In this document: positions 4,566 to 19,893 of the stretch, piece by piece
Layout of the letters: each line of letters starts with the position of its first letter
Numbering within the stretch: position 1 is the stretch's first letter
Source of the DNA: Methylophaga sp.
GTDB lineage: Bacteria > Pseudomonadota > Gammaproteobacteria > Nitrosococcales > Methylophagaceae
Assembly: GCA_002733105.1 (NCBI GenBank)
Contig: NVUI01000012.1
Span: 11,444 to 48,863 of the forward strand
DNA: 37,420 nucleotides
Direction: 5' to 3'
Program-made: the position numbers and the translations under genes
Notes under the pieces: generated by a model
What the model was told of the DNA's origin: nothing
Database searches by the model: none
The model's input: only the letters and a program-made list of their open reading frames with translations

Positions 4566-5072
4566 TTAAGCTGTCGCAACTGCTTTACGTCGTAGACCTA
4601 ACAAACCTAACAATGCTGGTGCAAACAGAAATAATGCAGCAGGTACTGGTACCGCTGAAACACCCGTATCTAGTTTTAATGCCGCACGACCATAATCAAA
4701 AGGTGAGTCAAAAGAAATACCTGAAATAGTGTAAGTACCGGCTAAAAATGCCCAGATACCTGTTGACCAACGACTATCAGCAGCAGCAGCATCGTAATTA
4801 CTGAAAGTTTGTTGATCAAAGCTCGTTGGTGTTGATGTTCTTCCTAGGCTAGTACCATCTGAAAAAACTTCAAAAATATCACCTGATAAAAAAGCATCAG
4901 TTACTGTTAAAGTAGATGTCTCAGTAATAGTAAAAGTAAAAGTCTCACTCCATGAGCTACCCGTTCCATCAAATAGGAATGAGCTCCAACCCGTGTCGGC
5001 AGTGAGTGTTGCAGCATTGACGTTAGCCATTGAAAACACGCTAAATAAAGTTATTAATAATTTTTTCATCAT
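4566..5072 (-). CDS. PEP-CTERM-like sorting domain protein (exported)
   Basis: ORF track starts at a TTG at 5093, but MMKKLLITLFSVFSMANVNA (ATG ~5072 or 5069) is a better signal-peptide start. C-terminus is VPVPAALFLFAPALLGLLGLRRKAVA: VPVPA motif, TM segment, basic tail. Confidence 0.75.
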   Translation of the reverse strand: MMKKLLITLFSVFSMANVNAATLTADTGWSSFLFDGTGSSWSETFTFTITETSTLTVTDAFLSGDIFEVFSDGTSLGRTSTPTSFDQQTFSNYDAAAADSRWSTGIWAFLAGTYTISGISFDSPFDYGRAALKLDTGVSAVPVPAALFLFAPALLGLLGLRRKAVATA

Positions 5073-5288
5073 CCATTTCTCTTGATTTATCAAAGTTTGA
5101 TTGTTCAGGTGTAAGTAAATGTACTTTCAGGACTAATCCAGTCTTGTTTACATTAATGAAACAAGTGATCGCTCACTTTGGTTCACTTCAAACACTTGGT
5201 TTTGTTTGAGATACAACTCATTATACCAAATAGATGACCTAGGTTGTCTATAGTACCAAAGTACTAAATCTCCTTTTATTTTGCTTTT

Positions 5289-14126: not shown

Positions 14127-15359
14127 ATGATGAGATTGTCAAATTTAAAAATGTGGGTTGTTGTGTTGGTGATATTCACTTCAATGACCATAACTGCCAA
14201 AGATGATAGCCAGTATTTATTGACTGAAAAAACATACAAAATACTGAACGATACGCAGCAATTAATGGCTGTGGAACAATATGAGAAAGCAGAAACAAAA
14301 CTGAGAGCATTGTTAGATAAAACAGCATCAGATTCATATGATAGAGCTGTAGTGCAGCAAACGTTGGGTTATTTGTATTCATCTCAACAAGATTATAAAA
14401 AGGCCAGTAGCCTTTTTCAGCAGGCACTTGATTCTAATGCTTTACCTGAAAAAGTAAGCCATAATTTGCAGTATAATTTGGCACAGTTGTTAATGGCCGA
14501 TGAGCAATATAAAGCAGGAATTTCATTATTAGAAGCCTGGTTAAAAGATGAAGTCTCGCCCCCCAATAGTGTAAATGTCCTATTAGCTAGCGCCTATTAT
14601 CGAGTAAAAAACTACTCACAAACAGTTACATATATTCAACTTGCGATTAACAATGATAAATCGGCAAAAGAGGCTTGGTATCAAATATTGTTATCTGCAC
14701 ATTTAGAACTGCAACAATATCAGTCTGCTATTAAAGTGTTGGAAACTTTGATCCCTCTTTATCCGTATCAAAAAATATATTGGGGTCAACTATCAGCGTT
14801 GTATTTAAAGCAAAATAAAGAATTTACTGCTTTAGCGGTGAAAATGTTGGCGCAACGTTTAGAATTAGGTGATAGCAAAATATTGGTTAGCCTAGCAGAT
14901 ATGTACCGCTATCTACATATTCCATACAAATCAGCACAATTGCTGATAAAAGGCATGGAAAGTGGTGGAGTTGAGGCAAATTATAAAAACCTTAATCGTT
15001 TAGCAGATAGTTGGTTAGCAGCTCAAGAAGGGCAAAAAGCGGCAGATGTATTGCAACAAGTGGCTAAGCTTGATGACACGGGAGAATCTGATCTGAAATA
15101 TGGGCGAGTGCTTTTTGGCCTAGAACAATGGCAGAAAGCGACTGAGCCATTATTGAAAAGTTTACAGAAGTTGACCGGTAGAAAAGTAGGCTCTGCTGCA
15201 TTACTTTTAGGCATGGCACAATTTCATGCAGGCCAATTGGCAGAAGCTAAGGTGATGTTTACCAAAGCGGTAGCATTTGATAATGAGCGGAATCAGGCGG
15301 GACAGTGGTTGCGACATATAGAAAGACAGCTTGAGGAGCAGACCATTGAACAGTCGTGA
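14127..15359 (+). CDS. TPR-repeat protein associated with TonB2-type system
   Basis: Signal peptide and repeated TPR-like units (AVVQQTLGYLYSSQQDYKKASSLFQQALDSNALPEKVSHNLQYNLAQLLMADEQYKAG); immediately follows tonB. Confidence 0.82.
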   Translation: MMRLSNLKMWVVVLVIFTSMTITAKDDSQYLLTEKTYKILNDTQQLMAVEQYEKAETKLRALLDKTASDSYDRAVVQQTLGYLYSSQQDYKKASSLFQQALDSNALPEKVSHNLQYNLAQLLMADEQYKAGISLLEAWLKDEVSPPNSVNVLLASAYYRVKNYSQTVTYIQLAINNDKSAKEAWYQILLSAHLELQQYQSAIKVLETLIPLYPYQKIYWGQLSALYLKQNKEFTALAVKMLAQRLELGDSKILVSLADMYRYLHIPYKSAQLLIKGMESGGVEANYKNLNRLADSWLAAQEGQKAADVLQQVAKLDDTGESDLKYGRVLFGLEQWQKATEPLLKSLQKLTGRKVGSAALLLGMAQFHAGQLAEAKVMFTKAVAFDNERNQAGQWLRHIERQLEEQTIEQS

Positions 15360-15909
15360 ACAACTTAAACAACAGTTGGTGCTGCATTATCTTTGGTTAA
15401 GACAATATGGTTGTAATGACTCTCATAGTGGCAATGCCTCATTTCGCTGGCATGATGAAATCTGGATAACGCCAACAGGCTGTTGTGCTGATACATTACA
15501 TGTTGATGATCTGGTCAAGTGTCACATTGATGGTTCAATGGAACAAGGTGCATCACTAGATGCACCACTACATATCCAAGTCTATCAAAAAAATCCCGAT
15601 GCTAGAGCGGTTATTCATAGTCATAACCCGCACACCGTTGCCATGACACTAAAAGGTGATGACTTTGTGCCTATTGATTTTGAAGGGCAATATTATTTTC
15701 CTGTTGTGCCGGTAATGACTATTGCCTACCAACATTATGTCGAAAAATCTCCTGTGGCTGTTGCTAATGTATTAGCAAAACACAAAGCGACGGTGGTTCA
15801 AGGTCATGGTGTTTATACCTGTGCAGAGAATATAAATCTTGCTTACAAATGGACTTGCTCAGTTGAGTTGTCAGCAAAAACAGCATGGTTAGCTGCTCAG
15901 GTTTTATAA
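15346..15909 (+). CDS. Class II aldolase/adducin family protein
   Basis: GNASFRWHDEIWITPTGC, DAPLHIQVYQKNPDARAVIHSHNPHTVAMTL (metal His pair), QGHGVYTCAENINLAYKWTCSVELSAKTA. Likely TTG start at 15346 with SD GAGGAG; track start TTG 15331. Confidence 0.85.
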   Translation: MNSREQLKQQLVLHYLWLRQYGCNDSHSGNASFRWHDEIWITPTGCCADTLHVDDLVKCHIDGSMEQGASLDAPLHIQVYQKNPDARAVIHSHNPHTVAMTLKGDDFVPIDFEGQYYFPVVPVMTIAYQHYVEKSPVAVANVLAKHKATVVQGHGVYTCAENINLAYKWTCSVELSAKTAWLAAQVL

Positions 15910-15980: not shown

Positions 15981-18086
15981 ATGTCATCCTCACAGTATTT
16001 AAGAACACCCCTGCTTACGGGTGATAATATTGAAGCTAAACGTAAGGAAATTGCCGCTTATTTTAATGCGACTTTTGAGCGGTATGAATCATTATTTGAA
16101 ACGTTAGCCGATGATCAGGCCTATTATCAACAAGCGATACCTCTTCGCCATCCATTAATTTTTTACTACGGACATACTGCCACATTTTTTGTTAATAAAC
16201 TGTTATTAGCCGGCTTAATAGAGCAACGTATAGATCCTAAATTTGAATCGATGTTTGCGATCGGTGTTGATGAGATGAGTTGGGATGATCTTGATGAGAC
16301 ACATTATGACTGGCCAACAGTGGCTGAGGTAACAGCTTATAGACAAGTGCTTAAACAAGTTATTAATACCATCATAGCAACAGCACCATTGAGTTTGCCT
16401 ATTAATTGGCAAAGCCCATGGTGGACTATTATGATGGGCATTGAGCATGAGCAAATTCATATTGAAACTTCGTCGGTTTTAATTCGTCAGCAAAGTTTGG
16501 ATTTAGTACAAACACATGACGCATGGCGGCCGTGGACAGAAACAGGTATCGCACCGGTGAATGAATTGGTGACTATTTCAGCAGGTAATATAGCGGTAGG
16601 TAAATCGGCCGACGATGTAATTTACGGTTGGGATAATGAATATGGCACGCATCAAGCTGAAATAAGTCAATTTCAAGCGAGCCAATTTCTAGTCAGTAAT
16701 CAACAGTTTCTTACTTTTATAGAGGCAGATGGTTATCTGGAAGACCAGTATTGGCTAGAAGAAGGTTTGCAATGGAAAAATTTTTCTAAAGCCCGTCATC
16801 CAACATTTTGGCAGCAAACAGAACAAGGCTGGCAGTTACGGTTAATGACTGAAATAGTCACGATGCCTTGGGATTGGCCGGTTGAAATCAATTATCATGA
16901 AGCTAAAGCATTCTGTAATTGGAAGGCAGCTCAAACAGGGCTGGCAGTACGATTGCCAACAGAAGATGAATGGTATCGAATTTATGATTATGCCGGTGTG
17001 GAAGAGTTAACAACAGCACAAGCATCTGCCAATATACATGGTGACTATATGTCATCACCTTGCCCCGTTAATCATTTTGCTCATGGAGAGCTATATGATG
17101 TTGTCGGCAATGTGTGGCAATGGACTGAAACACCTATTTATCCGCTTGATGGCTTCCAAGTGCATCCACTCTATGATGATTTCACCATGCCAACATATGA
17201 TGGTCGGCATAATTTATTTAAAGGTGGCTCATGGATATCAAGTGGCAACGAGAGTCGTAAGGCGGCGCGTTATGCCTTTCGCAAACATTTTTTTCAACAT
17301 GCGGGCTTTCGATATGTTGTTGCAGAGGAACTTGAGGAGCAAGTCGTGTCGAATTATGAAAATGATAAAATGTTATCCGAATATGCTGAATTTCATTATG
17401 GCGATAGCTATTTTGATGTGGATAATTTCCCTCAAGCTTTAGCGAATATTGCGATTGAAGCCTTAGGTGATAAGCCTGCTGGTAAAGCATTAGATATTGG
17501 TTGTGCTGTAGGGCGTGCCAGTTTTGAATTAGCCAAGCATTTTGATCATGTGACCGGTATCGATTTTTCTGCACGACTGATCAATTTGGGTGTGCAACTG
17601 GCAGCACAAGGTGTGATCCGGTACAGCATTATGGATGAAGGTGAATTAATGCTTCATCGTGAACGTCGCTTAGAAGAATTAGGCCTAGCTTCAGTAGCAG
17701 ATAAAGTTGAATTTCTACAAGGTGATGCCTGTAATTTAAAAGCACATTTTAAGGGTTACGACTTAGTGTTAGCTGCTAATTTGATTGATCGCTTATATGA
17801 TCCCGCACTATTTTTATCTTCAATTCATCAGCGAATAAATTCGGGTGGACTATTGCTGATTGCGTCGCCTTACACTTGGTTAGAAGCTCACACTAAGAAA
17901 CAAGATTGGCTGGGCGGTATTAAAAAGGATGGTGAGAATGTGACCACCTTAGATGGATTAAAAGCCGTGTTGGAATCACATTTTGATTTAATGACGGCAC
18001 CCCAACAAGTTCCGTTTGTTATTCGTGAAACTAGCCGAAAATTTCAGCATACTTTATCTGATGTAACACTGTGGATTAAACGGTAA
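15981..18086 (+). CDS. ovoA: OvoA: 5-histidylcysteine sulfoxide synthase / mercaptohistidine N-methyltransferase (ovothiol A biosynthesis)
   Basis: N-terminal DinB-like iron site (PLRHPLIFYYGHTATFF; HEQIHIE = HX3HXE), central FGE-sulfatase domain (RLPTEDEWYRIYDYAG, VGNVWQWTETPIYPLDGF, FKGGSWISSGNESRKAARYAFRKHFFQHAGFRYV), C-terminal SAM methyltransferase (ALDIGCAVGRASFELAKHFDHVTGIDFS). Confidence 0.93.
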   Translation: MSSSQYLRTPLLTGDNIEAKRKEIAAYFNATFERYESLFETLADDQAYYQQAIPLRHPLIFYYGHTATFFVNKLLLAGLIEQRIDPKFESMFAIGVDEMSWDDLDETHYDWPTVAEVTAYRQVLKQVINTIIATAPLSLPINWQSPWWTIMMGIEHEQIHIETSSVLIRQQSLDLVQTHDAWRPWTETGIAPVNELVTISAGNIAVGKSADDVIYGWDNEYGTHQAEISQFQASQFLVSNQQFLTFIEADGYLEDQYWLEEGLQWKNFSKARHPTFWQQTEQGWQLRLMTEIVTMPWDWPVEINYHEAKAFCNWKAAQTGLAVRLPTEDEWYRIYDYAGVEELTTAQASANIHGDYMSSPCPVNHFAHGELYDVVGNVWQWTETPIYPLDGFQVHPLYDDFTMPTYDGRHNLFKGGSWISSGNESRKAARYAFRKHFFQHAGFRYVVAEELEEQVVSNYENDKMLSEYAEFHYGDSYFDVDNFPQALANIAIEALGDKPAGKALDIGCAVGRASFELAKHFDHVTGIDFSARLINLGVQLAAQGVIRYSIMDEGELMLHRERRLEELGLASVADKVEFLQGDACNLKAHFKGYDLVLAANLIDRLYDPALFLSSIHQRINSGGLLLIASPYTWLEAHTKKQDWLGGIKKDGENVTTLDGLKAVLESHFDLMTAPQQVPFVIRETSRKFQHTLSDVTLWIKR

Positions 18087-19249
18087 TGACAATAGACTTT
18101 GATCTGATCGTAGATCGAACAGGTTCTTCAAGTGTTAAATATGATGTATGTAAAGCTTATTTCGGTACAGACGATGTCACACCACTATGGATTGCTGATA
18201 TGGATTTTTCTGCGCCAGAGGCTGTGACACAAGCACTCATTGAACGTGCTCAGCATCCTATTTATGGTTATACCGCGTATCCAAATAGCTTATTTAATGC
18301 AATGCAGGATTGGTTTAAACATCGGCATAATTGGTCAATTGATCGGCAGTCTATTTTAATGTGCCCAGGTGTTGTGCCTTCTATGCATGCTGCTATTGAA
18401 GCACTGTCACAACCCGGTGATGGTGTCATTATACAACCACCTATTTATCCTCCCTTTGTTACTGCTGTGACAGAAACCGGTCGAAAATTAGTAGAAAACC
18501 CACTCAAATTGGAACAGGGTGTTTACACCATTGATTTTGATCATCTGGAACAGAGTGCGGCATCTGGTACCAAGCTATTAATATTGTGCTCACCACATAA
18601 TCCTGTGGGTAGAGTTTGGCAACAGCAAGAACTTGAATGTATCTTGGATATCGCGCGTCGTTATCAACTGACTATTATTTCTGATGAGATCCACGCTGAC
18701 CTAATTTATCCAGATCAGCGTCATATTCCCTTAGCCACATTAGCCGATGACGTTGCTATTGTGACTGCCGTGTCGCCCAGTAAAACATTTAATATTGCTG
18801 GCTTGGGCCTATCTTGTCTTGTTAGCAATGATAGACAACAATTGCGAGCGATCAGCAAAGTATTTGATAGTTGGCATATCAGTGCCAGCAACCCCTTTAG
18901 CATTGCGGCATTTGAAGCTGCATATCGTGATGGTGCGGCGTGGTTGGATGAACTCATGGGCTATGTAGATGAAACGCGTAGGCAGGTGAGTGAATTTGTT
19001 GAAAACAACCTAAAGCCGATAAAATTGATTGCTTCACAAGGCACTTATTTATTGTGGCTTGATTGTCGTGAAATGGCGATGAGCGATGATGAACTTAACT
19101 CATTTTTTATTGCTCAGGCTAAAGTGGGAATGAATCCAGGCATCAGTTTTGGTCAAGTAGGTAGTGGCTTTATGAGAATGAATATTGCTGCGCCAAGAAA
19201 AACAATATTAGATGCCTGCCAGCAGATAGCACAAGCTTTGATGAAGTAA
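18086..19249 (+). CDS. ovoB: MalY/PatB-type PLP-dependent C-S lyase, probable OvoB
   Basis: DVTPLWIADMDFSAPEAVTQALIERAQHPIYGYT, SPHNPVGRVW, SDEIHADLIY, SPSKTFNIAGLGLSC (PLP Lys); TAATG overlap with ovoA. Confidence 0.87.
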   Translation: MTIDFDLIVDRTGSSSVKYDVCKAYFGTDDVTPLWIADMDFSAPEAVTQALIERAQHPIYGYTAYPNSLFNAMQDWFKHRHNWSIDRQSILMCPGVVPSMHAAIEALSQPGDGVIIQPPIYPPFVTAVTETGRKLVENPLKLEQGVYTIDFDHLEQSAASGTKLLILCSPHNPVGRVWQQQELECILDIARRYQLTIISDEIHADLIYPDQRHIPLATLADDVAIVTAVSPSKTFNIAGLGLSCLVSNDRQQLRAISKVFDSWHISASNPFSIAAFEAAYRDGAAWLDELMGYVDETRRQVSEFVENNLKPIKLIASQGTYLLWLDCREMAMSDDELNSFFIAQAKVGMNPGISFGQVGSGFMRMNIAAPRKTILDACQQIAQALMK

Positions 19250-19893
19250 TGGATACGAAAGCAGAAAGTCCTGTCACCTTAAAGCCCATTGCCCTTAAGG
19301 TACTAAGTGCCATTGTTTTATTGTGGGTGGTTAAAGGTTTAGAGCTCGCTTTTGACTGGGATTTTAGTGGTTATGGTATATATCCTCAAGCGATGGATCG
19401 CCTTATCGGTATCATCTTGGCACCGATGATTCATGGCTCTTTTGAGCATCTTTTTTCAAACACTTTAGCATTATTTATTTTGGCTACAGCACTATTCTAT
19501 GAGTACCCCAAAGCAGCCAAATATGTCTTTCCAATTATCTATATGGGTTCGGGAATGGGTGTTTGGTTGTTTGCACGAGAAGCACATCATTTTGGGGCGA
19601 GTGGTTTAACACATGGCATGATGTTCTTTTTGTTTTTGATTGGGGTGCTGCGTAGAGACAAACCTGCAATGGCTTTGGCGATGATTGTCTTTTTTCTCTA
19701 TGGCAGTATGGTTTGGGGGGTACTTCCATCAGAAGAAGGTATTTCTTTTGAAACCCATTTTTTTGGGGCTTTAATGGGCGTTATCTGTGCCATTGTGTTT
19801 CGTCATAAAGATCCTAAACCACCAGAAAAAAAATATAGCTGGGAAGAAGATGAGGATGAAGATGCTAGTGAAATTGAAAATAGAGTGGAATAA
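19249..19893 (+). CDS. Rhomboid-family intramembrane serine protease
   Basis: Multiple TM segments, HGSFEHLFSN, catalytic GASG, second catalytic His in ETHFFGALMG; acidic C-terminal tail (EEDEDEDASEIE); TAATG overlap with ovoB. Confidence 0.87.
   Translation: MDTKAESPVTLKPIALKVLSAIVLLWVVKGLELAFDWDFSGYGIYPQAMDRLIGIILAPMIHGSFEHLFSNTLALFILATALFYEYPKAAKYVFPIIYMGSGMGVWLFAREAHHFGASGLTHGMMFFLFLIGVLRRDKPAMALAMIVFFLYGSMVWGVLPSEEGISFETHFFGALMGVICAIVFRHKDPKPPEKKYSWEEDEDEDASEIENRVE

Follow-up and report, generated by a model that had tools for sequence, protein, structure and literature searches.

In the bacterial ovoA-ovoB operon, for which E. tasmaniensis OvoB and the structures 8khq and 5z0q serve as references, a three-module OvoA is followed on the same strand by a PLP-dependent C-S lyase. 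E. tasmaniensis OvoB cleaves the sulfoxide made by OvoA to 5-sulfanylhistidine (review, PMC9103826). The locus described here lies in a window of 37,420 nucleotides from Methylophaga sp. (assembly GCA_002733105.1, contig NVUI01000012.1, positions 11,444 to 48,863). It has the same arrangement, but differs in an overlapping third gene, encoding a rhomboid, that is seen only in part of the Methylophagaceae.

Among the described bacterial rhomboids, GlpG and Rhom7 carry out quality control of orphan respiratory subunits. In Shigella sonnei the substrates are orphan subunits of respiratory complexes, and deletion of both rhomboids leaves survival of peroxide and paraquat unchanged (PMC7232013). 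As at the present locus, glpG lies in one operon with a sulfur-metabolism gene, glpE (PMC7232013). B. subtilis YqgP has been shown to take part in the quality control of membrane proteins and acts with FtsH on MgtE (PMC7231995), and the V. cholerae rhombosortase RssP functions in the maturation of surface proteins (PMC11389362). A literature search for ovothiol together with rhomboid proteins found nothing related.

Gene content and packing of the locus

The first gene, ovoA (15981..18086, forward strand), encodes a 701-residue fusion of 5-histidylcysteine sulfoxide synthase and 4-mercaptohistidine N-methyltransferase. The N-terminal sulfoxide-synthase half scores 677.5 bits against TIGR04344 (curated cut-off 400), and the C-terminal mercaptohistidine methyltransferase 346 bits against TIGR04345 (cut-off 170); the methyltransferase half also matches OvoM (9bxl). 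A Pfam search found the FGE-sulfatase domain PF03781 together with methyltransferase domains, and the solved OvoA structure 8khq matches the window protein from end to end (E = 3e-270). Two histidine motifs of the iron site, HEQIHIE from residue 156 (HX3HXE) and GHTATFF from residue 64, both align with 8khq. The three modules that the sequence-only reading had seen in OvoA, namely the HX3HXE iron site, the FGE-sulfatase fold and the fused methyltransferase, are therefore borne out. A class II aldolase/adducin-family gene (15331..15909, forward strand, PF00596, placed on the synteny map) stands directly upstream of ovoA, as it does in most of the family genomes inspected, and is a commoner neighbour of ovoA in the Methylophagaceae than the rhomboid.

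The second gene, ovoB (18086..19249, forward strand), overlaps the ovoA stop codon by one base and encodes a 387-residue PLP-dependent lyase of the PatB/MalY type. The protein scores 537 bits against the PatB-type C-S lyase model TIGR04350 (cut-off 340), carries the PLP-lysine motif SPSKTF at residue 230, and its predicted structure superimposes on 5z0q (‘Crystal Structure of OvoB’) with TM scores of 0.88-0.91, all of which agrees with the earlier assignment of a MalY/PatB-type lyase that fits OvoB. B. subtilis PatB (6qp3) is nevertheless a better structural match to the model than 5z0q, and in sequence too the window protein is nearer to PatB. OvoB and PatB are not separable by sequence alone, and cleavage of the OvoA sulfoxide is the predicted role. 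The gene directly adjoins ovoA both in the window and at every family ovoA locus inspected, and the presence of OvoB follows that of OvoA across the Methylophagaceae, with the exception of one genome, G056. By analogy with the established pathway, OvoA would join cysteine to histidine as a sulfoxide and later methylate the ring, and OvoB would cleave the C-S bond between these two steps, giving ovothiol A.

The third gene (19249..19893, forward strand) overlaps the ovoB stop codon by one base and encodes a rhomboid-family intramembrane serine protease of 214 residues, with a score of 56.6 bits against the Pfam Rhomboid model PF01694 (cut-off 22.6). Its motifs are HGSFEHLFSN at residue 62, GASG at 116 and FETHFFGA at 167, giving a Ser118/His170 dyad and the oxyanion-region residues H62, H67 and N71. 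These residues, along with G116 and G119, are invariant in 46 rhomboid orthologues, which confirms the intact GASG/His dyad read from the window alone. A search of PDB chains with the sequence profile gave no match, but a fold search did: the AlphaFold model (mean pLDDT 93.4) has GlpG structures as its top matches, with TM scores mostly of 0.57-0.62 by query length, and shows a six-helix GlpG-like fold. The protein thus shares with E. coli and S. sonnei GlpG the six-helix rhomboid core, the Ser/His dyad and the HxxxxHxxxN motif, whereas it is only around 16-18% identical to GlpG in structural alignment and does not match the GlpG equivalog model TIGR04239. YqgP, likewise a rhomboid, has an N-terminal metal-binding cytosolic domain; in contrast, the window protein begins near its first membrane helix (residues 11-34).

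The ovoA-ovoB and ovoB-rhomboid junctions both read TAATG, so that one A closes the stop codon and opens the next start codon; the coordinates, reading frames and both junctions given in the sequence-only reading are exact. That reading had gone on to call the rhomboid ‘stoichiometrically coupled’, which exceeds the sequence evidence. The same one-base overlap occurs at 5 of the 25 same-strand gene junctions in the window, including one between a sensor kinase and a response regulator and one between two formate dehydrogenase-like subunits, as we read these open reading frames, and hence signals ordinary operon packing. In the other genomes with the linkage, the ovoB-rhomboid junction is TAATG, a longer overlap or a short gap. 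The overlap supports a probable shared transcript, not a fixed stoichiometry.

Elsewhere in the window (4566-5093, reverse strand) a small secreted-looking protein ends in VPVPAALFLFAPALLGLLGLRRKAVATA, which resembles a sorting signal of the PEP-CTERM/VPxPA type; it had no match among the NCBIfam models.

Distribution of the rhomboid and ovoAB

We surveyed 57 Methylophagaceae genomes, mostly MAGs and several of them incomplete, such that single absences are uncertain. Gene neighbourhoods were viewed at 34 family ovoA loci and at the ovoB locus of G056; elsewhere, absence of the rhomboid refers to a genome-wide search. A family-model search found OvoA in 53 of the 57 genomes. The rhomboid orthologue lies directly behind ovoB in 12 genomes belonging to two genera, and this linkage persists down to around 61% protein identity to the window for OvoB and 64% for the rhomboid. 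In 39 of the 57 genomes, 37 of them with ovoA, a general rhomboid search detected no member of the rhomboid family at all. Many of the 37 are more than 95% complete and the pattern of absence across them is not uncertain. Three further genomes (G017, G027 and G030) keep ovoAB and have the rhomboid orthologue elsewhere, among unrelated genes. At the level of whole genomes the two proteins show no correlation: 15 family genomes have both OvoA and this rhomboid, 38 OvoA only, one the rhomboid only and three neither (Fisher p = 1.0).

The gene order around the locus, ExbB/TonB-TPR-aldolase-ovoA-ovoB-[rhomboid]-wHTH-parE-parC, is shared by many genomes, whether or not they carry the rhomboid. The winged-helix gene (wHTH; DUF2582, PF10771; 20058..20261, forward strand, on the synteny map) is the first gene beyond the rhomboid insertion and directly adjoins ovoB in many rhomboid-free genomes. 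What the conserved adjacency largely reflects is therefore the conservation of the region as a whole, in which the rhomboid gene is optional.

Outside the family, a scan of a genome collection gave 80 loci of this rhomboid family, 64 of them assigned to families other than the Methylophagaceae. None of the 64 has ovoA or ovoB within around 6 kb, or up to the nearer contig end. Conversely, none of the 11 ovoA loci that a class sample contributed from beyond the Methylophagaceae has this rhomboid in the roughly 14 kb around ovoA, where contigs extend that far; at most of these loci a PatB-like or aminotransferase-like gene adjoins ovoA. Across the class-wide sample outside the family, two genomes have both OvoA and the rhomboid, nine OvoA only, 21 the rhomboid only and 286 neither (Fisher p = 0.18). 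Adjacency of the rhomboid to ovoAB, found in 12 of the 53 ovoA genomes of the family and at none of the 11 outside loci, does not recur across lineages.

A conserved partner gene of the rhomboid outside the family was also considered and rejected: neighbours are kept only within single lineages, and none is common across lineages. Judging from the sequences, these neighbours are presumably a molybdenum-hydroxylase-like cluster in Paraglaciecola and its relatives, and a RecQ-helicase-like gene in Porticoccus/Cellvibrionales. Plasmid relatives were likewise set aside; an Azoarcus homologue stands beside a glutathione S-transferase gene, with no ovo genes.

History of the linkage

Apart from the copy in G004, all rhomboids of the family form one clade (support 99/99), including the unlinked copies of G017, G027 and G030. 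This fits a history in which the gene was acquired once near ovoB, was later lost in several genomes and moved elsewhere in a few. A phage origin of the gene was rejected, a scan of viral contigs having found no relative. The G004 rhomboid groups with a Porticoccaceae copy (100/100) and has similar neighbours. The contig concerned (L056 / L127; NVVP01000061), part of a Methylophagaceae MAG, carries Porticoccaceae-like genes around its Porticoccaceae-type rhomboid; it is probably misbinned, and we set this copy aside from the family history.

The rhomboid-linked state changes three times on the OvoB tree, four times on the ParE tree and five times on the OvoA tree. The rhomboid thus tracks ovoB somewhat better than ovoA, which may be simple linkage, with neighbouring genes moving together. 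This tracking is the sole line of evidence for a relationship between the pair, and it comes mostly from one MAG, G056 (UBA652; 97% complete). Here ovoB and the rhomboid, joined by TAATG, lie behind proA-nadD (L052:6652-8435), and OvoA was not found by the family-model search that finds it in 53 relatives. On the OvoB tree G056 falls inside the linked clade (95/93). For OvoB, a tree in which the genus of the window forms a group that excludes G056 is not firmly rejected (AU p = 0.0525), and the ParE tree likewise places G056 near the group of that genus. Judged from these trees, G056 may thus have inherited the pair vertically, ovoA having been lost and the pair relocated, as against horizontal transfer.

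The histories of OvoA and OvoB conflict strongly within the genus (AU p = 1e-118 and 2e-18). The conflict comes mainly from G009, G023 and G015 (L057, L063 and L066), in which OvoA is placed near the group of the window while OvoB and ParE are placed outside it; their ovoAB genes occupy a different site from that of the window. These features together suggest that ovoA alone was exchanged. In another family genome, G003 (1.1 Mb), the parE copy is broken by many stop codons (G003:C6:41456-43234), and neither OvoA nor a PatB-type OvoB was found; it looks like a reduced genome.

Possible roles of the rhomboid

The sequence-only reading had suggested that the rhomboid could process a membrane redox protein or control the export or import of ovothiol. 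On this proposal the rhomboid would be an accessory of the ovothiol pathway, its substrate such a redox protein or a transporter of ovothiol, and the overlap would fix its dose. The catalytic residues are intact, and the adjacency is kept in 12 genomes of two genera with junctions that overlap or nearly so, as such an accessory would lead one to expect. The same reading had named a lack of conservation of the rhomboid beside ovoAB in related genomes as grounds for refutation; the adjacency is indeed lacking in most related genomes, though it is kept in the closest relatives of the window. The partnership is not borne out by the 37 ovoA genomes of the family that have no rhomboid, the three that keep ovoAB and the rhomboid apart, the want of any linkage outside the Methylophagaceae and the uncorrelated presence of the two proteins across genomes, and we regard it as very unlikely. 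An identity as a rhombosortase that processes GlyGly-CTERM proteins appears just as improbable, and was rejected. The window protein resembles RssP in being a compact rhomboid with no extra domains, and the rhombosortase model TIGR03902 is the top NCBIfam match for it and for four orthologues (40-49 bits). These scores are nonetheless far under the curated cut-off of 84, at 40.4 bits for the window copy and 43-49 bits for the orthologues. A GlyGly-CTERM model search of 11 family genomes gave no match with a short model that also matched no control genome. This gammaproteobacterial group of orthologues fails both the GlpG model and that for rhombosortases.

The tracking of ovoB raises a different explanation, in which OvoB acts as a general PatB-type C-S lyase and the rhomboid is functionally linked to it, for example in the handling of cysteine or homocysteine sulfur at the membrane, and not to ovothiol. 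That G056 keeps ovoB-rhomboid with its TAATG junction where no OvoA was found, and that the linked state fits the phylogeny of OvoB more closely than that of OvoA, would both be in keeping with this. G056 is a single genome, though, and a 97% complete MAG; everywhere else in the family OvoB follows OvoA, and no OvoB-like gene lies near the relatives that the rhomboid has in other families, so that we consider a tie to OvoB improbable. There is a slim chance that the PatB/OvoB-type lyase and this distinct rhomboid clade make up a two-gene unit able to leave the ovothiol pathway, of which nadD-ovoB-rhomboid in G056 would be the example. If true, such a unit would imply that an intramembrane protease works, at the membrane, in the metabolism of small thiols or of sulfur. 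Were the rhomboid to act on thiol metabolism, it would to our knowledge be the first intramembrane protease known in the biology of low-molecular-weight thiols.

Much the likeliest explanation is an ordinary ovoAB operon with a passenger rhomboid, one that has a general role towards membrane proteins and no specific part in ovothiol chemistry. In an ancestor within the Methylophagaceae, a rhomboid gene of a widespread gammaproteobacterial lineage would have come to lie directly behind ovoB, once. It is now probably the third gene of the ovoAB transcript, and may be translated by reinitiation at TAATG. The protein would function as its unlinked relatives do, most likely in cleaving other membrane proteins or clearing them, and not in the synthesis or transport of ovothiol. 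The precedent of glpE-glpG, where S. sonnei survival of peroxide and paraquat did not change, favours such a general role by analogy. Weighing against a mere passenger are the persistence of the linkage in 12 genomes of two genera, the pair in G056, which has held together once apart from ovoA, and the smaller number of changes of the linked state on the OvoB tree than on the OvoA tree. As it stands the finding matters little, in that it adds one more ovoAB operon, with a passenger gene specific to its lineage. It does carry a caution, namely that genes which lie side by side and overlap by one base are not thereby partners in a pathway.
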